This document shows, one piece after another, positions 1-30,589 of a stretch of DNA of 30,689 nucleotides. The position numbers and the translations under genes were made by a program. The stretch comes from a virus: IMG/VR virus record IMGVR_UViG_3300009419_001594, positions 1-30,689 of that record; one strand, given 5' to 3'. Under the pieces are notes generated by a model. That model did no database searches, had not been told where the DNA came from, and saw nothing but the letters and a program-made list of their open reading frames with translations. How positions within the stretch are numbered: the first letter of the stretch is position 1; every line of letters starts with the position of its first letter.

Positions 1-576
1 GGTTATTTTTTTATTGATTACTAGTTTATAGTTTTTTAAATGTTTTAGTATGTAATCTGAATTGGTTTGACAGGATAATCTAACACCTTCTCTTGTATCA
101 TAATCATTACTAAACATTGTTTTATCGCTATAACGTATTTGTAACATTATTTCATTGATGTTGGAATCGTTAAGTTTATTTAAAAAATTAATTAGATACT
201 TCTCATCTGGAAAGTGTTGTATAACAGCTTGACAAATAAAAATATCAGCATTTAAATCATTAAAGTTTGATTTTACGTTAGAGTCAAAAAGTTCTTTTTT
301 GTAACCTTTTAAGTTTATAGCTGCGTGTTTTAGTTGTCTTTGCGCTATATCAAACCCAATATACTTTTTTATTTTCTTTTTATCGAAAAGATATTTACCA
401 AATAAACCGCCACCAATACCGTAATCAATTACAGTTTTATTAGTGAAATCATATTTATTAACAAAATTATTTTCCCACGATTTTTGCAATTGTTTAATAT
501 CACCTAAATGCCCAGATATATCAATATGCGAAAATGTTTCATCGCATTTTTCCCAAAAGTCTTTATGTTTATCCAT
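1..576 (-). CDS. Class I SAM-dependent methyltransferase, 3' part cut by the window edge
   Basis: The reading frame stays open from an ATG at 574-576 to the window edge, giving 192 residues of a longer protein. A glycine-rich SAM-binding loop (VIDYGIGGGLFGKYL, about residues 49-63) is followed by an acidic strand end (YIGFDIA, about 73-79), then AVIQHFPD (about 114-121), the pattern of a small-molecule class I methyltransferase. The start codon overlaps the end of the upstream FkbM gene by 8 bases, so the two are probably translationally coupled. As the last visible gene of the glycosyltransferase operon, it probably methylates a sugar or other small acceptor; that is inference from neighbours. 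The substrate cannot be read from the sequence, and the C-terminal end is outside the window. Confidence 0.8.
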   Translation of the reverse strand, partial: MDKHKDFWEKCDETFSHIDISGHLGDIKQLQKSWENNFVNKYDFTNKTVIDYGIGGGLFGKYLFDKKKIKKYIGFDIAQRQLKHAAINLKGYKKELFDSNVKSNFNDLNADIFICQAVIQHFPDEKYLINFLNKLNDSNINEIMLQIRYSDKTMFSNDYDTREGVRLSCQTNSDYILKHLKNYKLVINKKIT

Positions 577-1261
577 TGTTACGTTTTGCTTTTAAAAAAA
601 ATATACCTTGATGTTGCTGAATTAATTCATACCCATTACCGCTTAAAAACGCTAAAACATCATACCCATTATCAAGATTCATCCAGTAATGAGTTTCAAT
701 TATTATTTTATTGAACTTTGTTTTTATTTCATTTATATTATTCTTTAAGAAATCAAATTCAAAACCCTCAATATCGCAATGTAAAGTATTAAATTTTAAA
801 TTATGTTTTTTCTCAAGATCACTAATAGTTGTCGTTTTTGTTTTAATAATATTACTACTTTTAGAATATAAACCAGAACCTAAAACAAAAGGGTTTACAT
901 GAAATTCTACAATATCTGTGTTATTGTTACTAACAATTGTATTTTCTAATATAAAATCAACATTGTTTATTTTTTTATGGTTGTTAATAATATTATTTAA
1001 ATTAGTGTTTGGTTCAACAGTTACTAAATTCTTAACTATCTTAGCCATTATACATGACACAATACCTAAACAACCACCTAATTCTAAAACAACGTCATTA
1101 TTATCATAATATTTAATAGCAAAATCACTCTCAACTCTTTCGTAATCACCCATCAATATTCTGTCTTTAATCGTTTCAACTTTAGACGCTGTTCTTTGTT
1201 CGTGAATTGACTTTGGTAATTCAACTAAAACCCCTTTATAATTTGTTTTAAATATTTCCAT
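569..1261 (-). CDS. FkbM-family methyltransferase
   Basis: This 230-residue protein has the two hallmarks of FkbM-type SAM-dependent methyltransferases: a SAM loop with VVLELGGCLGIVS (about residues 57-69) followed by VEPN (82-85), and the family signature HCDIEGFEFDFL (about 161-172). FkbM enzymes mostly O-methylate sugars or polyketides and are common in glycan clusters. It begins one base after the NeuB-like gene and overlaps the next methyltransferase by 8 bases, so it belongs to the same transcript. I infer that it methylates a glycan or glycosyl donor made by the neighbouring enzymes. Its length is close to the usual size of the domain, so no extra domain is present. The family call is strong; the substrate is unknown. 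Confidence 0.85.
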   Translation of the reverse strand: MEIFKTNYKGVLVELPKSIHEQRTASKVETIKDRILMGDYERVESDFAIKYYDNNDVVLELGGCLGIVSCIMAKIVKNLVTVEPNTNLNNIINNHKKINNVDFILENTIVSNNNTDIVEFHVNPFVLGSGLYSKSSNIIKTKTTTISDLEKKHNLKFNTLHCDIEGFEFDFLKNNINEIKTKFNKIIIETHYWMNLDNGYDVLAFLSGNGYELIQQHQGIFFLKAKRNNG

Positions 1262-1262
1262 T

Positions 1263-2108
1263 TTATTTCCTTAATGATTTTTGTTTTTCTAATTCTTTAC
1301 CAAACACCACTCTTGGTGCCATTGGGAGTGATAAGGCTTTTTCAATATCACGAATACCTTTAACTAGTTTAAATAAACCAGATGGTTCAATTGATGATGC
1401 TTGATCGGAACCCCACATACCCCTATCTAGTGTGATATGTCGTTCAATCCAAGTAACACCCATTGGAATGGTAGCAAATGTTGTTACAAGACCGTATTCG
1501 TGACCGCTATAACCAATTTCTTTAGCTGGGTACCAGCTTTTAAGCCAGTTAATATAGTTTAAATTTAATTCATCAACGGGGCATGGGTAAGTTGAATTGG
1601 TGTGCATGATAACGTCAGGTGAACATGAGTCAATACACTGTCTAATTTCATTTTCAGTACTCATGCCAGTTGATATAATAAACGTATTAGAATTTACCAT
1701 AGCATATTCACACAACTTTAAATCGGTGATTAATGCTGATGGTATTTTCATTGTACCATCATACATTTTAGTTTCTTTTGATATCTCCCTCATAAAATCA
1801 ACTGAATCCATATCCCAAACAGATACAAACCAATTGATACCTAACTCATAACAGAATCTATCAATTTCTAAATATTGTTCTTTAGTAAACTCAGTCTTCC
1901 ATTTGTAATCAATATAAGTCATTTCACCCCATGGTGTTTGTCTTATTTTTAATTTTTGATCATCAGGTACACATACATCAGGATTTCTTTTTTGAAATTT
2001 TACGTAGTCACAACCAGCAGCTCTTGCTACCATTATCAACTCTTTTGCGATATTAATATCACCGTTATGGTTGATGCCTATTTCAGCTATAATTTTTACT
2101 TTACCCAT
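1263..2108 (-). CDS. neuB: NeuB-like N-acetylneuraminate (nonulosonate) synthase lacking the SAF domain
   Basis: NeuB enzymes condense phosphoenolpyruvate with N-acetylmannosamine, or a related hexose, to form sialic acid or another nonulosonate. The 281-residue protein shows the family's TIM-barrel landmarks in order: IIAEIGINHNGD near the N-terminus, DYVKFQKR (about 34-41), FIISTGMSTENEI (about 143-155), HTNSTYPCP, IGYSGHE, and ERHITLDR with WGSDQASS and EPSGL near the end. It stops after KSLRK, where usual family members (about 340-350 residues) continue into a C-terminal SAF/antifreeze-like domain, which is missing here. It lies directly upstream of the FkbM gene and 3 bases after the GT8/GT42-like fusion, with a CMP-sialate synthetase-like gene close by. 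The exact nonulosonate (neuraminic, legionaminic or other) cannot be told. Confidence 0.92.
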   Translation of the reverse strand: MGKVKIIAEIGINHNGDINIAKELIMVARAAGCDYVKFQKRNPDVCVPDDQKLKIRQTPWGEMTYIDYKWKTEFTKEQYLEIDRFCYELGINWFVSVWDMDSVDFMREISKETKMYDGTMKIPSALITDLKLCEYAMVNSNTFIISTGMSTENEIRQCIDSCSPDVIMHTNSTYPCPVDELNLNYINWLKSWYPAKEIGYSGHEYGLVTTFATIPMGVTWIERHITLDRGMWGSDQASSIEPSGLFKLVKGIRDIEKALSLPMAPRVVFGKELEKQKSLRK

Positions 2109-2111
2109 ATT

Positions 2112-3974
2112 TTAATACCTATATTTATTTTTTATTTCATCAATTATTTGATTGTGACCATACCCATCTAAAATCATGTTATAAACATCATTAATAATTT
2201 CAGAATGATAAAATTTAATTTCTGTGTTATTTTTTATTAAATTGTTTAAAGCTAAAATAGCGTAAGTTATATCACACTCAATTGAATGTGGTTTTTTATC
2301 GTCAATGTATGGGTTAACAAATTTACTATCACCAAATTGCTTAAATGAACCATCACTATTTTTAACATTAAATAAATTATAACCAATAATATTGATTTTT
2401 TTAATTTCCATGAATGATGATAAAAATAACATAACAATACCAGATGTTGGGGTGTTTATTTTTTTATTGTTTACCCGACTAAGCAACATTTGTTTAAAAA
2501 TTATAGATCTATCCATTATAAAATAAAACGGATCTAAATTATTAGCTATAGCACCTTTTGATTTTACAAGATTGTTATATACGTTTGTAGTTAATAACCA
2601 ATTAGTTTTTGGTTTAAACAAATCAGCGTTAATTTCTTGAGCTAATTTAGCTTCATTTGTTGAACATAAATAAAAATCAACATCACAAACTTTACTAAAT
2701 TTATACCCCCAATTGGCTGACATATTTTTACCATTTTTAACTTCTGGTAGGAGTTCTCTGAGCTCATCTAATCTAATACCAGATGATATAACATTTAACT
2801 CTTCGTGTTCCACACCAATAACCCCCTTACATTTATTATAAGAATTTAACCAGAATTTTTCAATTTCAGTGTAGCTTTTTTCAAAATCTTTTTGTTTTAT
2901 TTGCCAAGGCTTCTCACCAACATAATGTATTATCTTTATATTTTTATCGTATTTTTTTAATAATTCTTTTTTAGAATCATTAAAACACCTCTTTAATAAA
3001 TTATAATTTGCGTTTATAAACAAAACCTCATATCTTTTAAGATAATAATTAAGTATGCTTTGATCTAAAAATGTGATATCAGGTATTTTATCAAATTCTG
3101 AAAAAATATTCATAACATGATCACTTTTTTGGTTAAATTCTTTGTCAACTAATAGAAAACCACCATTTAATTTTAATTGACTGTTTGAGTCATTGGCTAA
3201 TTTTATTTGATTAGTAGTTATATAATCTGAAGTGTCATTAGTTACAACAATATCCGACTTAGCTAAAAAAAGCTCTTTAATATCATTAATAACTAACGTA
3301 TCAGCGTCTAAGTATAATATCTTATCATATCCTGTAATATTAAATGTTTCTATTGTTAGGATAGACGCTGTAAATCTGTGGAAAGCTGGGTTTACACGAT
3401 TTTTAAATTCTTTTATAACGTACAGATAATCTTTAGTAGTTTCTATTTTTCTAAAAATAATGTTAGAATATAGCTTTGATATTTTATTAATGTTTTTATT
3501 AGATAAAAAAGAAAAATCATCATTATGCATAATAATAATGTCACCATCAAACCATCTGTTATGTTCTAGGAATGACGTAACGAACACATAAAAATATTCA
3601 GCAAACGAATCATTTAATATTGTTGTTACAGCGTATGTACTTGGTAAAGAATTACTTTTTAATTCAAAACTACAATTGATTTGCGTTGTATTAAGTATTT
3701 TATTTACCTCTTTTTTGTAAGTTACTTCATCTTTACTTTTAAAGGTTTTTTTATCTGGTTGAACTCCTTTATCAAAGGAACTAATTACCTGTTTTTTACC
3801 CATTAAATTTATTGTTGGTTTTTGCGGTTCGCCAATTTTACTTTTCAAACTTTTTTTACCTGGCAATGTAATCTCAGTAGCATCTTCAATTTTTAACTGA
3901 GCGTCAATAACCATTTTTTTCGGTTTATCGACACCAATAACTCTTTTACCTTTATTTCTTACAAAAATACCCAT
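2112..3974 (-). CDS. Two-domain glycosyltransferase: GT8-like domain plus GT42 sialyltransferase-like domain
   Basis: The 620-residue protein appears to be a fusion. Residues about 1-105 are lysine-rich and not recognised. Residues about 112-375 look like a GT8 retaining glycosyltransferase: YLDADTLVIND (221-231) holds the metal-binding DxD, LNGGFLLVD (269-277) is the usual acceptor-side motif, and HYVGEKPW (350-357) matches the family's HxxGxxKPW. Residues about 393-600 resemble GT42-type bacterial sialyltransferases: an N-terminal strand ISSGIRLDEL, then PTSGIVMLFLSS (509-520), INIIGYNLF (527-535), and PHSIECDI (562-569) followed by IKFYH, the same order as in Campylobacter CstII-like enzymes. 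It sits between the NeuB-like and CMP-sialate synthetase-like genes, which fits transfer of a CMP-activated nonulosonate. The GT8 call is firm; the GT42 call is from motif order only. Confidence 0.78.
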   Translation of the reverse strand: MGIFVRNKGKRVIGVDKPKKMVIDAQLKIEDATEITLPGKKSLKSKIGEPQKPTINLMGKKQVISSFDKGVQPDKKTFKSKDEVTYKKEVNKILNTTQINCSFELKSNSLPSTYAVTTILNDSFAEYFYVFVTSFLEHNRWFDGDIIIMHNDDFSFLSNKNINKISKLYSNIIFRKIETTKDYLYVIKEFKNRVNPAFHRFTASILTIETFNITGYDKILYLDADTLVINDIKELFLAKSDIVVTNDTSDYITTNQIKLANDSNSQLKLNGGFLLVDKEFNQKSDHVMNIFSEFDKIPDITFLDQSILNYYLKRYEVLFINANYNLLKRCFNDSKKELLKKYDKNIKIIHYVGEKPWQIKQKDFEKSYTEIEKFWLNSYNKCKGVIGVEHEELNVISSGIRLDELRELLPEVKNGKNMSANWGYKFSKVCDVDFYLCSTNEAKLAQEINADLFKPKTNWLLTTNVYNNLVKSKGAIANNLDPFYFIMDRSIIFKQMLLSRVNNKKINTPTSGIVMLFLSSFMEIKKINIIGYNLFNVKNSDGSFKQFGDSKFVNPYIDDKKPHSIECDITYAILALNNLIKNNTEIKFYHSEIINDVYNMILDGYGHNQIIDEIKNKYRY

Positions 3975-3977
3975 TAA

Positions 3978-4610
3978 TTAAAATATTATAGTTTCAAAAT
4001 CTTCATCAGTATCAACATCTGTAACATCACCTATAGGATAATACACAGTATTTTTATTATATAAATTACCATTTAAATTAAATAATTCAAAGATTTCAAA
4101 TATACTAATAAAATGTGATATTTCAAAAACTTTTGGATAATCTTGTCTTCGGTAAAGATTATGCTCAACTAATTGAGTTCCAGTATAATTTTTACCTTCA
4201 AACATATATAAATATGGGTGGGTACCTTTTATAATTTTTTTACATAATAAACTTTTAGCTTGATTTTCCACCATAAATGACATCGCTTTTATGATGTCAT
4301 CCCAAGTTCTTTCTGGGTATGTTAAGTATAACATAACACACATATCATCATTAGTTAACAAACCCCTATTAACTAAATCTATAATAACATCCTTTGTGGA
4401 TGTTTCATCCAAAGCCAATAAAGGGTCTCTAAAAACATAATTTATATCAAGTGATTTACACTTATCAATAATAACCTCATCGTCTGTGGTTACAATAACA
4501 GAGTTTAAGAATTCATATGGTATACTTTTGATCGTATATTCGAACAATTTCCTATTTTTAAACGGTAACCCTTTTGAATTACGTCTGGCTGGTATGATGT
4601 ATTTTATCAT
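3978..4610 (-). CDS. neuA: CMP-N-acetylneuraminate cytidylyltransferase-like protein (NeuA family)
   Basis: NeuA-type enzymes activate sialic acids as CMP-sugars. The 210-residue protein opens with YIIPARRNSKGLPFKN, the family's nucleotide-binding segment (usual form IPARxxSKGxPxKN), followed by VIVTTDDEVI, FRDPLLALDETST, and a C-terminal DVDTDEDFE resembling the closing ID-x-xEDF element. It is slightly shorter than typical family members (about 220-230 residues). It overlaps the upstream DUF115-like gene by 4 bases (ATGA) and lies 3 bases before the GT8/GT42-like fusion, so synthase, activator and putative transferase are co-transcribed. A close alternative is a KDO or legionaminate cytidylyltransferase of the same superfamily; the NeuB neighbour favours a nonulosonate. 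Confidence 0.85.
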   Translation of the reverse strand: MIKYIIPARRNSKGLPFKNRKLFEYTIKSIPYEFLNSVIVTTDDEVIIDKCKSLDINYVFRDPLLALDETSTKDVIIDLVNRGLLTNDDMCVMLYLTYPERTWDDIIKAMSFMVENQAKSLLCKKIIKGTHPYLYMFEGKNYTGTQLVEHNLYRRQDYPKVFEISHFISIFEIFELFNLNGNLYNKNTVYYPIGDVTDVDTDEDFETIIF

Positions 4611-5269
4611 TGGTAAATATTATTTTCTAAGTTTAACGACACAAAAGGGTTTATTGAAACCACATTGGCATCATAATGTCTTTTAATTTCATTTTTTACA
4701 ATTACAGTTTGGGATTCAATGACTTTTAACCAAGATTTATACTGCTTCCAGTCTTGCCATGGGGTATCTTTTATGCTGTTATAATAACCTTTAAACGTCA
4801 TTTCACTGTTTATGGTACCACAATCATGCCCTACTAATATAATATTCTTAGCGCCCATATATGCTGCAATGTGAATGGCTGATGTTATGGTTGAGAAGCT
4901 AACCACTATTTTATCTGTACCAAATACAGATGTGTCTATTTGCGTGTGACCATTATCGAGATGTTCAAAATAATATAAATTATCATGCTCTATTTTATTT
5001 ATATTTAATTTACCATCACCAGAATTAAGATTACCGCTGTCATATTTAGAAACAATAACAATTGAATCGGTATCTAAACTATCTTTAATAAATTTAGTTT
5101 CTTTCCTAACTAAATAATCGCACCAAATTTTTTTATAAGCTTGATTAACACCTATTAATATTTTACCATCAAAAAAACTATCGTCAATAAAATCTATTGA
5201 TTTACCAGATGCGATTATGTATATATCCTCACCTTTGTGTTTATCTTTTAATTCAGTTATAAGTTTCAC
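4607..5269 (-). CDS. DUF115/Maf-like (GT42-like fold) protein, possible glycosyltransferase
   Basis: This 220-residue protein begins with KGEDIYIIASGKSID (about 12-26), a nucleotide-binding-like strand and loop, then GKILIGVNQAY (about 35-45), and later FSTITSAIHIAAYMGAKNI (about 125-143) with ILVGHDCG. That order, a glycine/serine loop, a GVN segment and a TSA-helix leading to a VGHD strand, is typical of DUF115/6-hydroxymethylpterin pyrophosphokinase MptE-like and Maf-type proteins. Maf proteins take part in transfer of nonulosonic acids to flagellin. Given the NeuA-like gene immediately downstream (4-base overlap) and a GT2 gene upstream (4-base overlap), I infer a role in handling or transferring the nonulosonate. 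Family recognition is by motif only and the reaction is not established. Confidence 0.6.
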   Translation of the reverse strand: MKLITELKDKHKGEDIYIIASGKSIDFIDDSFFDGKILIGVNQAYKKIWCDYLVRKETKFIKDSLDTDSIVIVSKYDSGNLNSGDGKLNINKIEHDNLYYFEHLDNGHTQIDTSVFGTDKIVVSFSTITSAIHIAAYMGAKNIILVGHDCGTINSEMTFKGYYNSIKDTPWQDWKQYKSWLKVIESQTVIVKNEIKRHYDANVVSINPFVSLNLENNIYQ

Positions 5270-5952
5270 TTTAATTTAATTGGTAAATTGTTTTTATATT
5301 TATCCTCAAATAATTTTTTATTTTCTTCCCAATATTGGTTAGTATGCCCAACAGACATGTGAGTTATTAAGATATCGGTAATCACACCAACTTTAACACC
5401 ATCTAAATGGTTTGGGAAACAGAATGATAAGTCGTAGAAATGAAAACCTTTAAAACTCTCATCAAATGAATGTTTTATTTTTGTTCTATCGACAGCAAAA
5501 AGCACACCATCTAAAACGATCATTTCTTTAATTAAATTACCTTGTGGTTTTGAGAACATACTAGTCCATTTTTTTATACCATCACTATGGTTAACTATAC
5601 CATGCATAGATTCTCTAATCGCCCACCATTGTCCACTAATTAAATTATTAGTTCCAGCTAATCCTATGATACCATATTCTGGGTTTCTTTTAAAATGTTT
5701 GAATAATTTTTTGCCCCAATATTTTGTCTCAAAAATTAAATCATCATGACAAAAAACAATAATATCATGTTTTGCAACAGATAAAGCATCGTTGTATATT
5801 TCAGTTAAAGATTTGTCACCATTATTTTCATAAACTAGAACTTCCATATTAGGTGAAGCACATGTAGATTTTACATGTTCAAAATAATCAGGATCTATTT
5901 TCCTTGTTGAATATACAACTGTTATATTTATATCGTTATTACTCATATCCAT
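5266..5952 (-). CDS. GT2-like glycosyltransferase
   Basis: The 228-residue protein has a GT-A style N-terminus (INITVVYSTR, then VLVYENNGDKSLTEIYNDAL), a metal/nucleotide-binding IVFCHDDLIF (about residues 70-79), a DGVLFAVDR segment and a downstream GFHFYDLSFCF motif, ending with HMSVGHTNQYW. This layout matches the small family 2-like glycosyltransferases found in phages and polysaccharide loci. The start ATG overlaps the stop of the GT25 gene (TAATG), and a second ATG follows two codons later, so the exact start could be either. It lacks membrane segments and is presumably cytoplasmic. Donor and acceptor are unknown; by context it builds part of the glycan made by this operon. Confidence 0.8.
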   Translation of the reverse strand: MDMSNNDINITVVYSTRKIDPDYFEHVKSTCASPNMEVLVYENNGDKSLTEIYNDALSVAKHDIIVFCHDDLIFETKYWGKKLFKHFKRNPEYGIIGLAGTNNLISGQWWAIRESMHGIVNHSDGIKKWTSMFSKPQGNLIKEMIVLDGVLFAVDRTKIKHSFDESFKGFHFYDLSFCFPNHLDGVKVGVITDILITHMSVGHTNQYWEENKKLFEDKYKNNLPIKLK

Positions 5953-6656
5953 TATTTTATTAGTAAATCTTTTAAAACCATATTACCAACTGACTTTACA
6001 TTAGCCTCATTTATATCACTAGCACCAATTGTTTTTTGTATTATAAGTTGATCTATTGTTGAGTATAATCTTAAATCTATTTCTTCAAAGAATTTACTTT
6101 GTGTTAAAAATAGATCGAAGTTTTCACCCTTAATATTATCATCGGTCGCACTTAATAGTTTTGATAACATATTATTTTTTAACCCCCAAGCCCCAGAGCC
6201 ACTTATACCGTCAAAAGTTTCCCAATCATTGTTTATTAGTCTAAATTTAATTAAATTTTTTTTATATAAAAAAGATTTATTTCTATTGTAACCTAAAGCT
6301 AAGAAGTTCCAATTTCTTGGTAGTGTTTTTAATTTTTCTTTCATTAATTGATTAAAATTATCAACAAATTGAACATCATCTTCAAGTATAAGAACGGAAC
6401 TAACATCACGTTTTAAACAATCTAACCATATAGCTCTATGTGATTCCATACAAGCTATTTTACCATAGTTAGTTTCATTTAACTCATATTTTTTTTTATG
6501 AAATTTTTTAACATCAATAGCATTAACAGCCTCAAACCTGGTTGCAATAACATTATTTTTATTTAATTGGTCTTCAATAAATTTTAATTTATCTGGTCGA
6601 CTTTTTAAATTAATGTAATAAATTTCTTCAAATATTTTATTTAGTTCCGATCCCAT
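5952..6656 (-). CDS. GT25-family (LPS-type) glycosyltransferase
   Basis: The 234-residue protein carries the GT25 hallmarks: IYYINLKSRPDKL near the N-terminus, RFEAVNAID, an ACMESHRAIWLD segment corresponding to the family's G-x-xxSH motif, and VLILEDDVQF (about residues 86-95) holding the acidic metal-binding pair. GSGAWGLKNN further on corresponds to the GxxAYLLS-like element. GT25 enzymes add galactose and other sugars to lipooligosaccharide and, in large viruses, to collagen-like virion proteins. It overlaps its upstream and downstream neighbours by one base each. No signal peptide or membrane helix is visible. The family call is strong; the acceptor is unknown. Confidence 0.85.
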   Translation of the reverse strand: MGSELNKIFEEIYYINLKSRPDKLKFIEDQLNKNNVIATRFEAVNAIDVKKFHKKKYELNETNYGKIACMESHRAIWLDCLKRDVSSVLILEDDVQFVDNFNQLMKEKLKTLPRNWNFLALGYNRNKSFLYKKNLIKFRLINNDWETFDGISGSGAWGLKNNMLSKLLSATDDNIKGENFDLFLTQSKFFEEIDLRLYSTIDQLIIQKTIGASDINEANVKSVGNMVLKDLLIK

Positions 6657-7524: not shown

Positions 7525-8101
7525 TTGTTGCGTATTTTGTTTTTTCTTCCATTATAGCTAATTTAATAGCCATTTTTAAAATCTCACCTAATGATGATGT
7601 GTGCCATTCAGACATTTTATCTGAAGCTGTTTTATCGTAATTAGTGATAGCTTGGTATTCAATATCTGTCACCATACCACCGTTGTTATTTGACATAATA
7701 TAAAATAAACTTCTTTCACCAATAGACATAGACGTTAATGATTCATTAAATTCATACATCTTACCTTGATTCTTAATATGCCAATCGCTTTTACAAGGTG
7801 TATATAAACCAACTTTACCAATTGAATGTAATAAACTAACACGAATAACACTCTCTTTAGTTTGTTTAAGGTTTTCAGGTAACAACTCATTTAATTTAAG
7901 TGCGTAACCAGTAACACGAAGTAAATGATCAACTAAGCCACCTGGGAATGCATTGTGCAAACTAAGCATTGTAGATGCTGGCGCTTCAAAAAGACCCAAA
8001 TCACCTAATTTGTCGATTAATTCATTGGTGCAAATGTTATAACCTTTTACTGTGGTTAAAAACTTTTTTTTGTTTTCTTGGATTGTTTCTATTGTTATCA
8101 T
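7517..8101 (-). CDS. HD-domain-like protein with altered HD doublet
   Basis: The 194-residue protein resembles HD-superfamily phosphohydrolases: an early histidine in SLHNAF (48-53), GGLVDHLLRV (54-63), and VSLLHSIGK (88-96), the position of the usual LLHDIGK. A later SIGERSLFYI corresponds to the GHGEKS-type segment of phage HD proteins. The metal-binding Asp of the HD doublet is Ser here (H92-S93), so activity may be weak or lost. Active members cleave phosphate from nucleotides or other small molecules. Its overlaps with dUTPase (8 bases) and the upstream glycosyltransferase (4 bases) suggest a nucleotide-related role. The family is fairly clear; function is uncertain because of the substitution. 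Confidence 0.7.
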   Translation of the reverse strand: MITIETIQENKKKFLTTVKGYNICTNELIDKLGDLGLFEAPASTMLSLHNAFPGGLVDHLLRVTGYALKLNELLPENLKQTKESVIRVSLLHSIGKVGLYTPCKSDWHIKNQGKMYEFNESLTSMSIGERSLFYIMSNNNGGMVTDIEYQAITNYDKTASDKMSEWHTSSLGEILKMAIKLAIMEEKTKYATNG

Positions 8102-9324
8102 TTTACTAAATTTTTATAAATTTCATTTCTTAATTTCGTAACATTATTTAAATCATACCTATCTTTTACAGTTTCATATAATTTTTCACCTAAATCAATA
8201 ACCATTTGTGGGCTATCAGCTAATTTTTTAGCGTATTTAGTCCATTGTTTATGATTCTTAGCTGTATCAACCAATAAACAATTACCATCTGGGTTAGATT
8301 CACCACCTTTATTAACAGCGTTAATTAGATCAATAGTGTAAGGCCCGTAATTTTGAGCAATTAAAGCTTTTTTATGGAAACCAGCTTCAATAACTTTTAA
8401 TTGTGATTTATACTTATTGAAATCACTATCATTTAACGGTGCCAAAGCAACATCAAAATTATTATAACCGTTAGCATACTGATTAATCGCTTTAGTCCAG
8501 ACTCTTCTATATGGTTTATTTGTTGAATCATATGATGGGTCATCAACAAAACTAACTAAATAAGTCAAATATTCTTTATCTTGTTCCAAGTTTTTATAGT
8601 TATTCGTTAAGAATAGTTCATACATAAACCATGTCGTTTCTTGTGGTTTCATCGGTCTTTGCTCAACCTGATTAGTGTTTGGGTTTATTGATTGAACGGT
8701 TCCTCTGGTATCAAATCCGCATAAAACTATTTGAGATTTCTCACTAATAGATTTTTGGGTTGATCCAATACCACGTAATAACTCAATATCTTTAACGTGT
8801 GATGAACCGCCTAACCAACCAAATCTAATCAAATCTGATTTAATAGGTTTTGGTTTAAACTGCTCTTCGTTCGGGTCAATTGCGTTTGGCAAAACTACAA
8901 CATTTTTATTGTATTTTGCAACTTCTTTTGCAATTATTTCTGTTGGGACTGTAACTAGGTCTGCTAATTTAATACAATCTAATATAGTACCAGGGATATT
9001 ATCTCTTTTAGCCATGGCATATAAACCATGTGATGGATCTAAATTCCAGTGATCATCAGTATCAACAATAACTTTAATACCAAGTTTTTTGATTCTATTA
9101 ATAATTTCAACAGCTTCTTTATTTCTATGTTGCGGCATTCTATGAATAAACACAGCATCATAATTTTTAAGATAATTAACATCAGTGAAGTCGATATTGT
9201 AATTAATATCGATAAAATAATCACTAGAAAAATTATTTTGTAAATTAACGTGTGGGTCGACACATCTAAATTTACCTGAACCAGCTCTATCTCCTGGTGC
9301 TACTAATATTTTAATTTTTGACAT
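8098..9324 (-). CDS. GT4-like (GT-B fold) glycosyltransferase
   Basis: The 408-residue protein looks like a GT-B glycosyltransferase of the GT4/GT1 type. The N-terminal half contains KILVAPGDRAGSGKFRCV, DAVFIHRMPQ and KVIVDTDDHW, and TVPTEIIAKEV leads to VVVLPNAID (about 147-155), the usual domain linker. The C-terminal half has IRFGWLGGSSHVKDI (about 168-182), the nucleotide-sugar strand-loop, and a late VIEAGFHKKALIA segment with the conserved Glu expected for nucleotide-sugar binding. It is the first gene of the long leftward operon and follows a promoter-like sequence at 9344-9374. No membrane segment is visible. Donor and acceptor are unknown; phage examples modify cell surface polymers, DNA or virion proteins. 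Confidence 0.8.
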   Translation of the reverse strand: MSKIKILVAPGDRAGSGKFRCVDPHVNLQNNFSSDYFIDINYNIDFTDVNYLKNYDAVFIHRMPQHRNKEAVEIINRIKKLGIKVIVDTDDHWNLDPSHGLYAMAKRDNIPGTILDCIKLADLVTVPTEIIAKEVAKYNKNVVVLPNAIDPNEEQFKPKPIKSDLIRFGWLGGSSHVKDIELLRGIGSTQKSISEKSQIVLCGFDTRGTVQSINPNTNQVEQRPMKPQETTWFMYELFLTNNYKNLEQDKEYLTYLVSFVDDPSYDSTNKPYRRVWTKAINQYANGYNNFDVALAPLNDSDFNKYKSQLKVIEAGFHKKALIAQNYGPYTIDLINAVNKGGESNPDGNCLLVDTAKNHKQWTKYAKKLADSPQMVIDLGEKLYETVKDRYDLNNVTKLRNEIYKNLVK

Positions 9325-9391: not shown

Positions 9392-9784
9392 TTATTGATT
9401 ATCACCTTTAATTACACGATAAGAATCATCGTCAAAATGTTCGGTTGATACTTCGAATATAATACCGTCAGTTATAGCTATTAGTTGGTGTGGTTGTCCT
9501 GGTAATTGTCTTACGGAGTCACCTTCACGCAAATTAATTTCGATAACATCTGCGTTGTTTGTGTTAATATATCGATAAATGAACTCACCTTCTTTAACGT
9601 ACCAAGTTTCATCTTTAATTAGATGGTAATGCATTGAAAATTTAGCCCCAGCTTTAAAGCATAAAAGTTTACCACAATAGAGTTCATTGTTTTCAAAAAT
9701 AACTTCGTGACCCCATCCTTTAGGTATATTACATTCTTTACATTCTAAAGCATTTATTACTTTAGGCTGTTTCTTGTGTCCCAT
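9392..9784 (-). CDS. Single-domain cupin, sugar isomerase/epimerase-like
   Basis: The protein has a nearly perfect cupin metal site: a glycine, then SMHYHLIKDETWYVKEG with the two His, the Glu and the closing Gly (GX5HXHX4EX6G), and the second motif GDSVRQLPGQPHQL with its metal-binding His. KGWGHE before the barrel is typical of mannose-6-phosphate isomerase type II C-terminal domains and related sugar isomerases. I prefer the ATG at 9784 (130 residues): an upstream GTG at 9814 would extend the protein by 10 residues but lies at the foot of a terminator hairpin. It stands alone between that terminator and the promoter-like sequence of the next operon. By context it may supply or modify a sugar for the nearby glycosyltransferases; the reaction is not readable. 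Confidence 0.8.
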   Translation of the reverse strand: MGHKKQPKVINALECKECNIPKGWGHEVIFENNELYCGKLLCFKAGAKFSMHYHLIKDETWYVKEGEFIYRYINTNNADVIEINLREGDSVRQLPGQPHQLIAITDGIIFEVSTEHFDDDSYRVIKGDNQ

Positions 9785-9814
9785 AATTGTTTTATTTAAT
9801 ATACAATATTGCAC

Positions 9815-12687: not shown

Positions 12688-15600
12688 TTAAACTACCTCT
12701 TCTTTTCCTAATCCTGGTATCGTAAATGTTATGTTTTCTTGGAACCAAAAATCAGCTTGGTACTCTAATTTACCCCAAAAATCTATTTCCATATCAGATG
12801 GTGTAAATAATTCTTCTAAAGTATCTTGATCACCCTCTTTACTTGGTTGATTATTAACTAATGTTAATTCAGATATCATCCAATTTTTTTTATCTTCAGG
12901 TTTATTAATTAATATTTTATTTCTAACTGAAAGGTCAAAAAGTACCAATAAACCTTTAATTCTTGAGTTAAACATTGATAGGTATTTATCGACATTATAC
13001 TCACCCAATGTTTCTGGCGCTGACTCAATTACAGAAGCTTCAATTAGTTCACCATAAATCTTACCATTTTTATCCTCTTTTACATCACCATGCGATTTTT
13101 TAGTACCGACATTGACATAATATAACGTATCACCCAAATTAACTTGTAAGTTATGCTTAACAGCTAACTCCATGTGTGCTTGTTTTGGTAATGGTGCGCC
13201 ATTTTTATTTGAACCTCTATTGATATATTGTGTAATAGTTTTTTTAACTCTAGCTTTTGTTGCTATTTTAGCTAAAGGTATTTTTTTATCACAAATTAAA
13301 TCAACGTATTTGTAATAATATTTAACAAATTCATACCCTTTATCATTTAATAATAGAACTAAGCCTTTATCTAAAAATTCTTCAATGTAAACTGGCATTT
13401 TTTTAGATTTAATAGTATTACCAGTTAAACTAATACTACCATCGTCCTCTAATAACGCATAATTTTTTCTTGCTAAATTAATAGTTGCGGGCCACATACC
13501 ATCTAAACCTAAAGCCATTTCGCCTTTCATATAAAGATCGTTAAATTCAGCTACAACAGCATTAACGCCACGATATTCTTTACCAGCAATAACTTCATCA
13601 TTATTACCTTTACCAATGTAATAAAAATCATCCTCACCTTTTTCAGGTGCCATAAAGTTAACACCATCCGTATCTAATACAGTTGGTTGGTAACCCTTCT
13701 TAATAAAGAATTTAACCATTAATCTAAGATACTGTCTTGCTGTGCACGTAATCTGTTCACTGATGTTTATTTCAGCCCATGGGAACGCATTTGGCGCACC
13801 CAATGCACCAAACATTGAGTTAATGAATATCTTTAAAGGTAATTGTTTACGTTTATACAAAGATTCGAGTTGATGGTTACCTTGTTTTTTATATTGCTTA
13901 GCCAAATCTTTAGCCTTAAAACGTTCAGAGTGAAAGTATTTTAATAATGACTTCATTACACCAGTAATATCAACACTTGGAAATATATCATGCGCTAATT
14001 GAATAGCTGGGTATAGTGAGTTAAAGTCCATCTTCCTTAGATTCTTTGAGAATCCAACTTTTAATAATCTAGATAAGCCACCAACAAAATCACGTTTATC
14101 ATCTTGTGATGGTAATGCTAGGTTATTTTCATAAGACCAAGTAATCATAATCATTTTCCATAAACCAGCGGTACCCATTGTTGATACTCTTTGGTATGTT
14201 GTTGGAATCATCTTAGCTAACATAAAAGATGATTGATTATATACGTTATCAATTTCAGCAGTTTCCCATAAATCGTCCATTAAATAACGTTTAACTATAT
14301 ATTCACCATTAACAACTTCAAATTTATTAACATAATCATACATAGCCTTTATGGTTGCTTCTAAAAAAGAAAATGTTTTTGGTGCCTTTTCTTTTAATTT
14401 TGCTAATCCAGTACCTATACCATTACTTGGTAACACAATTGTTTTACCGTTATTAATTTGAGCTAAAATTAAATTAACTGAGTAGTTAATTTTTTTCTTA
14501 TTTAGTTCAAATTCGGAATCAGTATAATACGAATCATCAGTTGTGCTTGGTTTCTTTTTAGTTGGTATACCGATTGCGTTACGTTCTCCACGCATTTCTC
14601 CAGCTTGACCACCCATACCGTCTCTTTCATCGTTATCACCAAAAATAAACACCATATCTGGGTTATCTTTAACATAATCCCTGGTGATAACATCCATAGT
14701 GATAATGCTTGGTTTTTTTTCGCAATATAAACCAGTTATATTGTTAAAATAATAATCTTTATTGTTTTTCCAATAAGCACCGATTTTATCCCCTTTAATG
14801 TAAACACGATTCTTTTTAGCGATCTTATTATATTTACAAACATATTTTAAAGAAGCTGATTTCATGCTAGAATCAATAGCTTGAGCTTTACGTGACGAAT
14901 GTATGATATCTATAACTGAGTAACCAAACATATTTGTTTGAGTAAATTTTTCAACATCCCCACCTAACTTGATTATCTGATCTTTGTTTGTGATTTTAGA
15001 ATCTTCTTTTAATGTTTTAGCTAAAGATTCAATGTCAACACCTAATTTTTCACAACGCTTAAATATAAAATTCCAGTCAAAGTTAGCGCTATTATAACCA
15101 GCTATAATAGCTGGTTTTACGTAATCAATTGCGGCAAAGAATTTAGCGATAGCTGCAACCTCAGTGGCATCAGCATTATCACCCTCCGTTTCACAATCAA
15201 ACAACACCTCAAAACCTTTATTTGTCTTACAACCAATTAAGAATATCCTTGATGTTTCAGGATCTAAACCAGTTGTCTCTAAGTCAAATACAAATTTTTC
15301 AATATCGTTATAATCTTCATAACCCTTATATAACCTTTTTCCTGTGGATACTAAATATTGTTCAACAGGTGGTAGAATCATAAAATATGTGTTGATGTCA
15401 TTAGTTTTATCATATATACCACGATAAAACCCACCTTTTCTGAAGAATTCTAACATTCTATCATGCCCTTGATCACAAGTTAGTAGATACTTATAACCAT
15501 CGGTTAATCTTTCGTGTTCACCATGCTCTAATGAAGTAATGTTGATACCAAACTGTTCTCTGGCTAATTTAATTTTTAGAGGGTTGTTATCGTAAAAATT

Positions 15601-15810
15601 AAATCTTTCTTTTAGGGTGTTTAAATTCTTCATCCAAAGAAACGCCTTTAAAGGTTCAGTTTCTGTTGTTTTTGTGCCATCTGGTAATTGCTTGAATTTA
15701 TGGATTAAGTTAGTTTTGTTATCATATTCTAGGTTTACGATATACTTTTCATCATCATGACCTAATAAAAATTTCTCAACTTGCTCAATAGGTATTTTAT
15801 ACTCACTCAT
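12688..15810 (-). CDS. Family B DNA polymerase with an inserted extra domain
   Basis: The 1040-residue replicative polymerase has 3'-5' exonuclease and polymerase modules. Exo I is FVFDLETTG (D176, E178). Exo II is GYNSANFDW (D245). Exo III is YLMDDLWE (Y509, D513). Motif A is DFNSLYP (D595), motif B is LPLKIFINSMFG (K660, N664, G668), and motif C is VLDTDGVNFM (D713, D715), so both activities should be intact. Between Exo II and Exo III, residues about 369-494 form an extra domain with IFGDND, GGQAGEMRGE and SNGIGTGLAK, unlike normal family B polymerases. T4 gp43 has about 900 residues; the insert explains most of the excess. A perfect Bacteroidota-type promoter precedes it. It appears to be transcribed alone or to read through into the late operon. 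Confidence 0.95.
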   Translation of the reverse strand: MSEYKIPIEQVEKFLLGHDDEKYIVNLEYDNKTNLIHKFKQLPDGTKTTETEPLKAFLWMKNLNTLKERFNFYDNNPLKIKLAREQFGINITSLEHGEHERLTDGYKYLLTCDQGHDRMLEFFRKGGFYRGIYDKTNDINTYFMILPPVEQYLVSTGKRLYKGYEDYNDIEKFVFDLETTGLDPETSRIFLIGCKTNKGFEVLFDCETEGDNADATEVAAIAKFFAAIDYVKPAIIAGYNSANFDWNFIFKRCEKLGVDIESLAKTLKEDSKITNKDQIIKLGGDVEKFTQTNMFGYSVIDIIHSSRKAQAIDSSMKSASLKYVCKYNKIAKKNRVYIKGDKIGAYWKNNKDYYFNNITGLYCEKKPSIITMDVITRDYVKDNPDMVFIFGDNDERDGMGGQAGEMRGERNAIGIPTKKKPSTTDDSYYTDSEFELNKKKINYSVNLILAQINNGKTIVLPSNGIGTGLAKLKEKAPKTFSFLEATIKAMYDYVNKFEVVNGEYIVKRYLMDDLWETAEIDNVYNQSSFMLAKMIPTTYQRVSTMGTAGLWKMIMITWSYENNLALPSQDDKRDFVGGLSRLLKVGFSKNLRKMDFNSLYPAIQLAHDIFPSVDITGVMKSLLKYFHSERFKAKDLAKQYKKQGNHQLESLYKRKQLPLKIFINSMFGALGAPNAFPWAEINISEQITCTARQYLRLMVKFFIKKGYQPTVLDTDGVNFMAPEKGEDDFYYIGKGNNDEVIAGKEYRGVNAVVAEFNDLYMKGEMALGLDGMWPATINLARKNYALLEDDGSISLTGNTIKSKKMPVYIEEFLDKGLVLLLNDKGYEFVKYYYKYVDLICDKKIPLAKIATKARVKKTITQYINRGSNKNGAPLPKQAHMELAVKHNLQVNLGDTLYYVNVGTKKSHGDVKEDKNGKIYGELIEASVIESAPETLGEYNVDKYLSMFNSRIKGLLVLFDLSVRNKILINKPEDKKNWMISELTLVNNQPSKEGDQDTLEELFTPSDMEIDFWGKLEYQADFWFQENITFTIPGLGKEEVV
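14329..14706 (-). other. Extra domain inserted in the polymerase exonuclease region (DUF7831/macro-like)
   Basis: This marks residues about 369-494 of the polymerase. Its motifs, VITRDYVKDNPD, FIFGDNDERDGMGGQAGEMR, NAIGIPTKKKPS and LPSNGIGTGLAKL followed by KAPKTFSFLE, are those of a small free-standing phage/bacterial protein family that I recall as DUF7831, thought to be macro-domain-like. The flanking polymerase reads continuously if it is removed (from YYFNNITG with a short linker into NKFEVVNGEYIVKRY). No intein splice-junction residues are seen, so it stays in the mature enzyme. The ends are approximate. Confidence 0.75.
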
Positions 15811-15832
15811 ATTATTTTAGTCTACTTTGGGA

Positions 15833-15864
15833 CAAAAGTAATAAAAAATGAAACAAAAAACAAA
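15833..15864 (-). promoter_or_regulatory. Bacteroidota-type promoter of the DNA polymerase gene
   Basis: On the minus strand TTTG (15864-15861), a 20-base spacer and TACTTTTG (15840-15833) match the Bacteroidota -33 TTTG and -7 TAnnTTTG boxes exactly. The polymerase ATG is 22 bases downstream. The rest of the gap (15865-15958) holds no gene; I see only a weak GGG/CCC inverted repeat near 15870-15890. Confidence 0.7.
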
Positions 15865-15958
15865 TTTTTAGGGGGATATTATATTAACCCAAAACACACA
15901 TACACCCTATATCTATCCCCAAACCAATAAAATCAAGGGCTACAGAGTCAAATTTTAT

Positions 15959-16363
15959 TTAATTAATGTATTTAATGTCGCTTTTGACAAAGCTATCAAT
16001 AACATGGATGTATAACTCCTCAGCTATAGGGACTATTAAATCACCATTTGTTTGTATGCAGTCATTTAAGAAAGTTATCTTAAATTGACCTAAATATACA
16101 CCAGGTTTATTAGTGTCGTCAGTTGTAAAATCGTAGACAATATAATACTCTTTTTTACTATTAATATCACAAGGGTCTTTTAAAATAATTTTAGCTTCTT
16201 TATTTGCCACCTTGTAAATACCAGTTTTTTCATCTTTCATTGCAAAGGTGATAACTGAATTCTCTAATAAATCATCGAAACGATTATAATCATTTCTACC
16301 ATCACGATATAATTTCATTCGTAATGATGGTAATTTTGAGTTTTGTCTAATTGTAAAAATCAT
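15959..16363 (-). CDS. BppU-like baseplate or fibre-attachment domain protein
   Basis: The 134-residue protein is beta-rich and ordered like the N-terminal domain of phage baseplate upper proteins (BppU/DUF2479 type): an opening FTIRQNSKLPSLRMKLYRDG, SVITFAMKDEKTGIYKV, AKIILKDPCD, YYIVYDFTTDDT followed by PGVYLGQFKITF, and a closing VPIAEELYIHVID. In known phages this domain links receptor-binding proteins to the baseplate. It is the last gene of the leftward virion operon, overlapping the previous gene by one base. No carbohydrate-binding part is present, so it would be only the attachment module. The assignment rests on pattern only. Confidence 0.55.
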   Translation of the reverse strand: MIFTIRQNSKLPSLRMKLYRDGRNDYNRFDDLLENSVITFAMKDEKTGIYKVANKEAKIILKDPCDINSKKEYYIVYDFTTDDTNKPGVYLGQFKITFLNDCIQTNGDLIVPIAEELYIHVIDSFVKSDIKYIN

Positions 16364-16704
16364 TATATTTGGTTTTTTATAAATACCCTTCTACCACCTT
16401 TTGGTTGGTAAAGATTGTACGTTTGTAAGTTATTTTCTATAATTTCTCTAATTTCTGTTATATACAAAGGTATTGAATACATTTCAATAAACTTAACACC
16501 ACCATTAAATGTACCCGCAAAAAATTTATCTATAATACTATCTACATTTTTATTAGGGTCTAAATAAACTGCATCATATAAACCTTGAGATCCACCACCA
16601 AATGATATATTAAATGGCACACCTTCTTGATATTTTGCCTCAGTATCTAATTTCGTGTGGTATGACCTCTTTAAAATTATGATTTCTATAAACGGTAAAA
16701 CCAT
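16363..16704 (-). pseudogene. C-terminal fragment of a frameshifted virion protein
   Basis: This 113-residue frame is most simply the last third of one structural protein whose earlier parts lie in the frames at 16640-16870 and 16833-17843. Its informative part starts at KLDTEAKYQEGVPFNIS, and the residues before that (such as IEIIILKRSYHT) look like an artefact of the overlap with the frame before it. If one A near 16654 is skipped, the previous frame joins smoothly as IPHE-LDTEAKYQ. GVPFNISFGGGSQGLYD is followed by a DPN segment and a C-terminal half rich in aromatic and beta-type residues, typical of tail proteins. It overlaps the BppU-like gene by one base. The start shown is only the first ATG in this frame. 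Confidence 0.6.
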
Positions 16705-16870
16705 TTAAACTAATTGTTAATGTTCCGTTTTTATAATCACCATATGTTAAATCACATTTAGTGTCATAGCTAAAATCTCTTTCAAATGTTACCGTAACAT
16801 AAATAAATTTATCGCTGTTGTTTTGATTTTGATCAATTAATAACAGAGCATTTAGTATACGAGTCTTCAA
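16640..16870 (-). pseudogene. Middle fragment of a frameshifted virion protein
   Basis: This 76-residue frame has no good start: the first codon available is TTG inside the upstream frame. Its content, TRILNALLLIDQN, FIYVTVTFERDFSYDTKCD and GTLTISLNGFTVYRNHNFKE, reads as beta-sandwich tail protein and continues directly from KYFTIE in the upstream frame if one base (a G near 16867) is dropped. It then runs into the last frame near 16654. Both joins are +1 shifts. I therefore treat it as the middle of one protein of about 490 residues. Sequencing or assembly error and real inactivation are both possible. Confidence 0.6.
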
Positions 16871-17843
16871 TTGTAAAATATTTAGTTACTATTTTACCAA
16901 CAGTAAAATTATCGCAATCTTGTGTAAAATCAACAAATGAGTTATTTGTTATACCGCTAACATCTTGAGTTGCACCAGTATAACAAGGATCTGTTGCATA
17001 TATTTTTCTATAACCAATTTTACCGTCTGGTGTAATTCTAACACCAAAAGAATTATCTATAACGTCTTTATACATGTTAAAGTAAGATAATTGTGTATCA
17101 CCAGTAAATGTTAAATCTAAAACATTTCTACCTGCGTATGGTATACCATCTTTTATGTAAAAATACCCTTCATAAGGTGAACCGTTTAATTGATATGTAC
17201 CAGTTGCTGTGTATTGATTCTCAATATCAACAAATGTGAACGCATAATCGTTTTTTAGTATAGTAACTTCAATAGGTGTTAAATCCGAATATTTATTTTC
17301 GGCTCTAGTACCTAAATAGTAAATAAAACCTGGGTTGTTAAATACATCGTTTAATGTTGTTCCACTAGTAGCTCCAGTACCATAACCTAAAGTTGGAAAA
17401 TGTAACATCATATTTGTTGTCCACCCTTTTCTCATTCTGTTTGGCATAAATTCAACGGGATAACCGTATAGTTTAAAAAATCCTTGATAAAAACCGCCAG
17501 AAAGTTGATTATAACCTAGTTTTGGCGTGATATCATAATTTAAATTTTTAGTGTAACCTGAAACTTCATGTAAACAAAGAGTATCATCTTTAGATACAAT
17601 ATACTCAACTTCTGGGTCTATAGTGCCATTACCAAAATGAATAAAATAATTATCATAACCATTTAATGATATATTTTTTAATAAAACATCCTCACTTTGT
17701 TTAATACCAATGGTAGTACAAAGATTTTCGGTTACATCAATATAAAATAACTTTAAAGCGTTATAATCTCTAGTTGATGTCCTATCGTCTTTTGTTACGA
17801 TAAAGTCATAGTATGCGCCATATTCGAGTTGAGTTTTAATCAT
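16833..17843 (-). pseudogene. N-terminal two thirds of a frameshifted virion protein (baseplate or fibre type)
   Basis: The 336-residue frame has a good ATG at 17843, sharing one base with the upstream gene stop. It is rich in Tyr, Asn, Thr and Gly, with beta-strand patterns such as YDFIVTKDDRTS, PEVEYIVSKDD, GGFYQGFFKLYGYPVEFMP and GTYQLNGSPYEGYFYIKDG. The repeated YQGFF/YEGYF plus PYEG wording suggests tail fibre or baseplate wedge structure. It ends shortly after VTKYFTIED in residues that do not continue the theme, while the +1 frame does. With the next two frames it would form a protein of about 492 residues. I do not recognise the family beyond a virion role. Confidence 0.65.
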
Positions 17844-30149: not shown

Positions 30150-30192
30150 ACCCGTTTTGCTTCCCGTAAGATTAGCAAGCGGGTCTTTTTTT
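30150..30192 (+). terminator. Hairpin terminator after the tail tube gene
   Basis: ACCCG-TTTTGCT (30150-30161) pairs with AGCAAGCGGGT (30174-30184), with one bulge and one G-T pair, followed by CTTTTTTT to 30192. It lies between the convergent tail tube and Vsr-like genes and overlaps the end of the latter by two bases. Confidence 0.8.
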
Positions 30193-30589
30193 ATCCATTG
30201 ATTATTGTATATTTTTCAATGAAGGTATTTATTTTTTCAGTTAATAGTTTTTTCTTTTCTATCTCATGTTCCCAAATTACCAATAAAGTATAAGTTTTAT
30301 CAAATTTAACTAATTTTACTTTGTATTGGTCATTCTTTAAATTTCTTCTTTGGAATGCATATTTTGGTTCTGGACTATGTTCCTTACAACAATGAAAAAA
30401 ACAACCATGAGTTTCAACCAGTATATTATGATCATTCAATAGAAAATCATATTCTCTTTTTTTAAACACAAAGTGTTGCTCATATTTAATCCCCAATTCA
30501 TCAAGTAAATCAGCAAAAGATACTTCAAGATTTGAGGTACCCTTCATTTTTTTAAATAATTTACCTATTTTACCTTTCTTTTTAGCCAT
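30191..30589 (-). CDS. Vsr-like PD-(D/E)xK-type nuclease, possible free-standing homing endonuclease
   Basis: The 132-residue protein follows the very-short-patch-repair endonuclease fold: Glu22 in SNLEVSFADLL, GIKYEQHF, Asp48 in REYDFLL, ILVETHGCFFH (56-66), and LLVIWEHEI (102-110) at the place of Vsr's VVWECEL. E. coli Vsr uses E25, D51, T63, H64 and H69; E22, D48, T60, H61 and H66 here keep the same spacing, so the active site looks complete. The N-terminus is strongly basic. Vsr nicks at T:G mismatches, while related phage proteins of the EDxHD group are homing endonucleases. Placed alone and convergent next to a tail gene, with no DNA cytosine methyltransferase in view, it fits a homing role better than repair. 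Confidence 0.8.
   Translation of the reverse strand: MAKKKGKIGKLFKKMKGTSNLEVSFADLLDELGIKYEQHFVFKKREYDFLLNDHNILVETHGCFFHCCKEHSPEPKYAFQRRNLKNDQYKVKLVKFDKTYTLLVIWEHEIEKKKLLTEKINTFIEKYTIING

Follow-up and report, generated by a model that had tools for sequence, protein, structure and literature searches.

Why would a T4-like phage carry genes for sialic-acid-type sugars, by which route would such a sugar be made, and to what would it be attached? These questions are raised by the virus record IMGVR_UViG_3300009419_001594, a sequence of 30,689 bases (the window), in which a NeuB-like synthase, a NeuA-like cytidylyltransferase and two candidate transferases are encoded side by side. Tail sheath and DNA polymerase genes were recognized in the window by profile scan, and the sheath is matched by many T4-type phages, which marks the window as a fragment of a T4-like phage. 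The results described below make it likely, for synthesis, activation and transfer (steps 1, 3 and 4 of the mechanism proposed further on), that the phage has at this locus an exchangeable glycan cassette for making and using an activated nonulosonate. More generally, the genes for an activated nine-carbon, sialic-acid-like sugar and for its attachment to a glycan, perhaps one on the virus particle, seem to form an exchangeable set in some large aquatic viruses of bacteria. The four central genes are the following (CMP, cytidine monophosphate).

1263–2108, minus strand: NeuB-family nonulosonate synthase without a SAF domain, 281 amino acids (PF03102, 3.3e-56)
2112–3974, minus strand: fusion of a basic leader (residues ~1–110), a GT8 domain (118–358) and a predicted sialyltransferase-fold domain (385–620) (PF01501, 6.5e-18, and structure model)
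3978–4610, minus strand: NeuA/PseF-like, putative CMP-nonulosonate cytidylyltransferase (PF02348, 5e-6; PseF, 4.2e-12)
4607–5269, minus strand: DUF115/Maf-like protein, candidate nonulosonate transferase (PF01973, 7.6e-7, under the cut-off, and structure model)

A preliminary description of this DNA had placed the four proteins at these nearly gapless positions and proposed that they synthesize a nonulosonate, activate it with CMP and transfer it. The genes are as described, and the predicted functions are supported by profile matches, conserved catalytic residues and fold matches.

Synthase, cytidylyltransferase and their association

The proposed membership of the synthase in PF03102 is borne out by a score of 190.9 bits against a gathering score of 22.1. 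Among 66 distinct phage synthases, K121, S124, H203 and H224 are kept in all 66, E9, K37 and Q39 in 65 (one gap each) and Y174 in all apart from one gapped sequence; we take these residues to have the catalytic and metal roles of their counterparts in NeuB of Neisseria meningitidis. The protein is short, as is the solved chain 6ncs with 290 residues. By its sequence it is a member of a distinct short NeuB subfamily and not a classical N-acetylneuraminate synthase, because its score falls below half of the equivalog cut-off of TIGR03569. Cellular relatives are plentiful (429 confirmed in GTDB contigs), and some interleave with phage sequences in a midpoint-rooted FastTree phylogeny that has low support at several nodes and in which viral contigs binned with cells may account for the nearest "cellular" ones. 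The synthase motifs presumably also resemble those of the animal 9-phosphate synthases.

The cytidylyltransferase scores 26.9 bits on PF02348 against a cut-off of 22.6, and its matches in the PDB are synthetases of CMP-N-acetylneuraminic acid (CMP-Neu5Ac), at 3.6e-9 and 2.2e-8. The preliminary description had named a different pathway, such as that of 3-deoxy-D-manno-octulosonate (KDO), as the alternative for this enzyme or the synthase. KDO cytidylyltransferase (KdsB-type) models match it more weakly, at 0.0014 to 0.093, than do PseF and the CMP-Neu5Ac synthetases, and the KDO pathway is not the best reading.

To follow these genes beyond the window, 83 NeuB loci were assembled from the best 80 of 108 confirmed viral-contig relatives, two phage records and the window itself, whose own copy (L003) was dropped from the relatives; many of the contigs are fragments. 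A NeuA-like gene is present in 76 of the 83 loci, at most three genes from NeuB in 60 and adjacent to it in 39. When GT29 genes served as the starting point (best 80 of 123), NeuA lay within 10 kb in 45 of the 80 loci and NeuB in 25; when DUF115 did, with 4-kb flanks, NeuA was found in 28 of 46 loci. Overlap with the NeuB set, compared by hand, amounts to 11 of the 80 GT29 loci and 17 of the 46 DUF115 loci, and without the shared contigs NeuA is still near 34 of 69 and 15 of 29, respectively. As a control, 80 tail sheath loci of the same lineage (best 80 of 149; 852 kb) gave no match to the NeuB, NeuA, GT29, DUF115 or HAD profiles, the control being one lineage that includes short contigs, some of which carry the cassette further away. 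Since a NeuA-like gene accompanies NeuB in 76 of 83 loci and none of the 80 sheath loci matches the profiles, the gene association exceeds chance.

Candidate transferases

Outside the GT8 domain, the fusion protein has no Pfam match; it carries a PHS/PHT motif whose His is invariant. Its residues 385–620 (bases 2112–2822) were modelled with a mean predicted local distance difference test score (pLDDT) of 80.4, and the sialyltransferase fold foreseen for this region was recovered: the model aligns with Cst-I at Z 12.2 (root-mean-square deviation, rmsd, 3.8 over 188 residues), followed by Cst-II (11.3) and a Pasteurella sialyltransferase. It also matches Maf (10.4), SteA (9.9), MptE (9.5) and mammalian GT29 enzymes (6.8–8.2), all others being at 4.4 or below. 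The DUF115 protein, modelled at pLDDT 89.9, is closest to Maf (5mu5; Z 13.6, rmsd 3.8, 171 residues aligned), then to MptE (12.5) and Cst-I (12.0), with SteA at 10.2 and thiamine pyrophosphokinases at up to 9.4. Its assignment to PF01973 holds in part, in that there is a match but at 29.5 bits it stays below the cut-off of 34.6, a value that one relative (L036:9542-10204) reaches with 34.8 bits. The same protein matches phrog_4603, labelled "alpha-2;3-sialyltransferase", at 2.3e-7.

Gene position speaks for the same function. In 78 cases the gene 5' of NeuA could be classified as DUF115 (23), GT29 (12), NeuB (11) or other (32), GT29 or DUF115 genes are present in 61 of the 83 loci, and in L079 the homologous fusion consists of GT8 and GT29 domains in Pfam; this position adds weight to the transferase reading. 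Compared with the GT29 profile, the fusion C-terminus gives a probability of 88.9 and an E-value of 2.4e-6, over only 74 columns and from 7 sequences. The viral-contig search with this domain found one relative, and profile comparison shows no relationship between it and the DUF115 protein. Neither tblastn with the GT8 fusion nor megablast with the first 12 kb of the window matched anything in the phage collection.

The GT29 genes of related phages were characterized in the same way. All 20 sampled proteins match PF00777. Mammalian ST3Gal I is matched by the profile of the phage enzymes at 4.7e-33, in an alignment that takes in the IDSHD...RxN, TG, HY and H...E regions, which we take to be the named GT29 motifs. 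In the window and 16 relatives chosen for size, a sample also used for the Epimerase_2, GT42 and export scans, PF00777 is matched in 8 of the 17 records, the window and 8 of the 16 relatives having none.

Several further observations concern these enzymes. The 484-kb uncultured phage LR756508.1 (L001) has tandem GT29 genes at 14259–19080, beside NeuB and HAD, and in that genome seven stretches are matched by the GT29 profile and five places by tblastn. GT29 profile matches also lie near the NeuB subfamily in 4 of 80 cellular contigs (L134, L139, L177 and L190), with titles naming Thermoplasmatales, Neomarinimicrobiota, Actinomarina and Pelagibacteraceae. The GT8 fusions, and likewise the GT29 proteins that occupy the same position after NeuA, begin with a basic leader some 100 residues long (MG-F-xKNKxKR...; window 3645–3974; L005:4097-5248; L008:7128-9023). 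Aligned leaders score 219 for L008 against L005, where the best of 300 shuffles reaches 83, and 89 against 73 for the window and L005. Could this leader be a shared targeting module placed on different enzymes?

The locus and its exchange

The four central genes belong to a longer, tightly packed minus-strand run (569–6656), with gaps of 1, 3, 3, -4, -4 and -1 bases between successive genes. The other genes considered in and around this run are these.

1–576, minus strand: class I methyltransferase, of which the window edge leaves only the start (182/192 residues identical to L004)
569–1261, minus strand: FkbM-family methyltransferase (PF05050, 1.4e-9; TIGR01444, 1.1e-16; both above cut-off)
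5266–5952, minus strand: GT2-type glycosyltransferase (PF13712, 6.1e-25)
5952–6656, minus strand: GT25-type glycosyltransferase (PF01755, 2.4e-20)
8098–9324, minus strand: GT4-like glycosyltransferase, conserved flank of the locus (phrog_7162, 1.1e-41; L467 has a gene 63% identical at this position)
9392–9814, minus strand: small cupin, possibly a sugar isomerase, of uncertain cassette membership (PF07883 and PF07385, just above cut-off)

A single transcript for the run 569–6656, as proposed in the preliminary description for its four genes, is plausible from this spacing, whereas scans for signals lend it no support: the window holds 67 promoter-like sites against a mean of 78.1 in shuffled sequences and 3 terminator-like sites against 2.9, neither above chance. 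The extent first given, 1263–5269, covers genes that are real but is too narrow, the cassette being larger than four genes: it includes the FkbM methyltransferase (569–1261) and, past the window edge, a HAD phosphatase that the nearest relative encodes. The first account had missed the phosphatase that accompanies the pair in relatives, and also the exchangeability of the locus.

That property is seen in a syntenic relative of 206 kb, in which both flanks are conserved, one comprising GT4, dUTPase, w6656 and GT2 genes and the other PhoH, two weakly matched glycosyltransferases and a weakly sigma-like gene. The slot between them holds RgpF (1.3e-27), WbsX (8.1e-92), an unknown gene and a weak HAD match. 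With the same flanks around a different content, this fixed site has at least two alternative cassettes, the nonulosonate genes being one. Among 16 larger records with a related sheath, chosen for size, NeuB was found in one, a contig already in the NeuB set, and in none of the other 15, which may be fragments and to which the 206-kb relative belongs. One record with no labelled gene (L469) was left out of the flank comparison, and a dUTPase search that gave 9 loci was not used further.

Elsewhere in the window, the DNA polymerase (12688–15810) has an apparently inserted domain at residues 370–481 that matches phrog_2072 (8.8e-15). A GP88 family protein (PF17338, 3.7e-19) is encoded at 20945–22105 on the plus strand amid minus-strand genes, and positions 30191–30589 give a weak match to the mismatch endonuclease Vsr (7.7e-4, below cut-off).

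Proposed route and destination of the sugar

The loci of the relatives suggest a route by way of a phosphorylated intermediate. A small HAD protein (~100 residues, with a DxDxT-type motif) is present in 76 of the 83 NeuB loci and is the next gene downstream of NeuB in 36. The count was obtained by separating 71 HAD proteins from a first, single-linkage cluster that also held cupins and then requiring the motif; the profile for the neighbourhood and sheath scans was built on the 71 sequences, one of them a HAD-cupin fusion, so that cupins can match it. Ten of 12 sampled HAD proteins match the EcbF-BcbF capsule biosynthesis phosphatase model, far below its cut-off where bits were shown, and PDB entry 9iqw matches the small HAD at 4.6e-20. 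The window ends inside an open reading frame where the HAD domain is expected. In the nearest relative, L004, which shares the gene order of the window and has a NeuB 96% identical to that of the window, the frame that is cut at window base 1 continues into a HAD and a GT4-like domain (L004:11533-13449; HAD profile, 4.8e-59; Methyltransf_11, 5.2e-6; Glycos_transf_1, 1.4e-4, the latter below cut-off). In cellular contigs with the same synthase subfamily, a DxDGV motif follows the NeuA domain in 7 of 10 long NeuA proteins, as it would in a fused phosphatase.

NeuC, which the preliminary description had found lacking from the window, was not found in the relatives either: Epimerase_2 proteins occur in 13 of the 83 loci and in 3 of the 16 large records, which may be incomplete, and the two that were tested (L045 and L050) are WecB above the cut-off and far below that for NeuC. 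Mutual exclusion between Epimerase_2 and HAD was considered and rejected, since HAD accompanies Epimerase_2 in 11 of its 13 loci and is present in 65 of the 70 that lack it (p 0.30). With HAD beside NeuB and NeuA, and NeuC not found, a phosphorylated (9-phosphate) route is probably the simplest reading.

Other observations touch on the precursor. In L062 (10820–11530) HAD and a cupin are joined in one protein. The window cupin matches the D-lyxose isomerase family PF07385 at 9.9e-5 and has no strong solved relative (best 0.044); by virtue of the isomerase match it might supply a mannose-type precursor. A close relative carries a GH130-like gene (L008:10567-11577; mannooligosaccharide phosphorylase family, 2.3e-11) between NeuB and HAD, a further hint of mannose.

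Taken in order, the short NeuB is strongly predicted to condense phosphoenolpyruvate with a mannose-type sugar, or the 6-phosphate of one, that the host supplies (step 1). A small HAD phosphatase, encoded outside the window and suggested by the relatives, would take off the 9-phosphate (step 2). The NeuA/PseF-like enzyme is, again on strong grounds, predicted to make the CMP-sugar (step 3). On the strength of fold and position, the DUF115/Maf-like protein and the fusion C-terminal domain would transfer the nonulosonate of this CMP-sugar to a short glycan that the GT8, GT2, GT25 and GT4 enzymes encoded nearby would assemble and FkbM-type enzymes would methylate (step 4). The acceptor may be a virion protein glycosylated in the cytoplasm, a weaker suggestion to which we give somewhat less than an even chance (step 5). 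The product class is predicted to be a nonulosonate, with Neu5Ac, 2-keto-3-deoxynononic acid (Kdn) or another member all candidates.

A number of results weigh against this scheme. No SAF domain is matched in the synthase, which stops at residue 281, and its scores on the NCBIfam models for N-acetylneuraminate synthase (TIGR03569; 186.7 bits, cut-off 399.65) and pseudaminate synthase (138.5, cut-off 340.25) are far too low. Position 126, two residues after the serine of the KxxS motif, is an acid (D or E) in the three aligned relatives of known structure but leucine in 61 of the 66 phage synthases, and S, M, L, K, C or A in at least 69 of 72 cellular relatives. The cytidylyltransferase reaches 46.2 bits on PseF (TIGR03584), where the cut-off is 205.7. 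Neither NeuB nor NeuA lies within 10 kb of HAD in 44 of 80 phage HAD loci (best 80 of at least 468), no HAD is found among the window genes by motif or profile scan, and NeuB is within 4 kb in only 10 of the 46 DUF115 loci. As to the transferases, the GT29 profile has no match in the window, the GT42 profile PF06002 has none in the 17 records and none in 14 controls either, and profile comparison shows no relationship between the DUF115 protein and the phage GT29s. The fold of the candidate transferases is shared with proteins that are not transferases (the pterin kinase MptE, SteA and thiamine pyrophosphokinase); since Maf and a pterin kinase have the fold in common, fold alone is no proof of function, and in both models it is the right one for a sialyltransferase, not proof of one.

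The missed equivalog cut-offs, the replacement of an active-site acid by leucine and the fold's occurrence outside transferases would all suit a product that is some other activated acidic sugar, such as another ulosonic acid, handled by transferases that are not strict sialyltransferases. We judge this unlikely, given that both enzymes match nonulosonate enzymes at the family level and have such enzymes as their PDB relatives, and that GT29 and DUF115 genes recur beside the synthase and cytidylyltransferase. Much further removed is the reading of the cassette as a host-derived passenger without a phage role, or as a binning or assembly artefact: the many cellular synthase relatives and their interleaving with phage sequences fit it, yet the 80 viral loci that were kept all encode the synthase, with open frames and its conserved residues, the window also has genes for a tail sheath and a DNA polymerase, and a related phage has the same flanks around a different cassette, so that this reading is very unlikely.

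The preliminary description had left the destination of the sugar between virion, DNA and host envelope. Nothing that was found points to DNA as the acceptor. Hypermodification of phage DNA with the activated sugar might be entertained since phage glycosyltransferases can modify DNA, as stated in the available part of PMC12619734, and a dUTPase, annotated by sequence, lies in the same gene run; no base-modifying or hydroxymethylating match was noticed among the scanned window proteins, which are not all of its open reading frames, and the transferases resemble glycan and protein sialyltransferases, leaving this idea scarcely probable. Addition of the CMP-nonulosonate to lipid-linked lipopolysaccharide or capsule units of the host, exported by the host and serving to block superinfection or alter host recognition, is a more serious contender, possible though in our view rather doubtful. 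GT2, GT4, GT8, GT25 and FkbM enzymes are generally known to be common in envelope glycan loci, the slot of the syntenic relative holds the envelope polysaccharide families RgpF and WbsX, and the nearest relatives of the small HAD are capsule biosynthesis phosphatases. The lipid-linked export families PF01943, PF02397 and PF04932, by contrast, are absent from all 16 large relatives while present in 13, 9 and 9 of 14 control genomes, so that all export would fall to the host; the scan covered these three families in phage records, host genes and other export families lying outside it. The DUF115 model is also nearest, by a small margin, to Maf, a cytoplasmic protein glycosyltransferase. Because of the missing export families and the Maf-like fold, the evidence leans towards glycosylation of virion proteins in the cytoplasm over the other destinations.

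The proposed cassette has several partial counterparts among known systems. In the Kdn pathway of Bacteroides thetaiotaomicron and Prymnesium parvum, the available part of one account (PMC6200933) names a Kdn-9-phosphate synthase, a phosphatase and a CMP-Kdn synthetase. The phage set agrees with it in combining a synthase, a HAD phosphatase and a CMP-synthetase, without NeuC and in three steps from a sugar phosphate, a likeness of genes and step order and not a direct sequence comparison with the Bacteroides enzymes; it differs in being phage-borne and in having a small HAD that resembles the EcbF-BcbF capsule phosphatases. The flagellin glycosyltransferase Maf (5mu5) shares the fold of the DUF115 protein, but the latter is phage-borne, has 220 amino acids against 632 and stays below the PF01973 cut-off. 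Cst-I and Cst-II of Campylobacter jejuni (GT42) likewise share the fold of the fusion C-terminal domain, which differs in its 10–14% identity, its fusion to GT8 and the silence of PF06002, a profile that is silent in the controls too.

GT29 sialyltransferases have no match in the window but occur in related phages. A 2023 review (PMC10225777), in the part available, assigns GT29 to eukaryotes plus 23 proteobacterial and one archaeal sequence and derives the family from Proteobacteria, and the word "phage" occurs in it 0 times; a 2014 review (PMC4202792) states, in its available part, that bacterial sialyltransferases do not belong to GT29. Mycobacteriophages decorate capsid and tail proteins with phage-encoded glycosyltransferases (Freeman et al. 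2023, as cited in PMC12619734), a precedent for virion glycosylation; the available part of that account has no nonulosonate pathway, and here virion glycans are suggested by the genes. Azotobacter phage TayeBlu has a gene annotated as an alpha-2,3-/2,8-sialyltransferase, and the available part of the account (PMC12772287) names no synthase or CMP-activating gene. No description of a phage NeuB-NeuA-sialyltransferase cassette was found in the open-access literature, a search outside of which most subscription journals and preprints lie. What would be new, then, is that phage glycosylation and prokaryotic nonulosonate synthesis, both known, are joined in an exchangeable phage cassette.

It is tempting to go further and picture a self-contained CMP-nonulosonate pathway, perhaps leading from mannose-6-phosphate to CMP-Kdn, with Maf/GT42- or GT29-type transferases that would sialylate the phage's own virions, whole cassettes being swapped at one locus like bacterial O-antigen genes and giving rise to phage surface serotypes; taken as a whole, we hold this speculation to be somewhat unlikely. 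If the proposed cassette is real, there are bacterial viruses that both produce sialic-acid-type sugars and activate them for themselves, virion glycosylation gains a specific and assayable mark, and a phage reservoir is added to the GT29 enzymes. It would also define a locus at which related phages exchange glycan cassettes.

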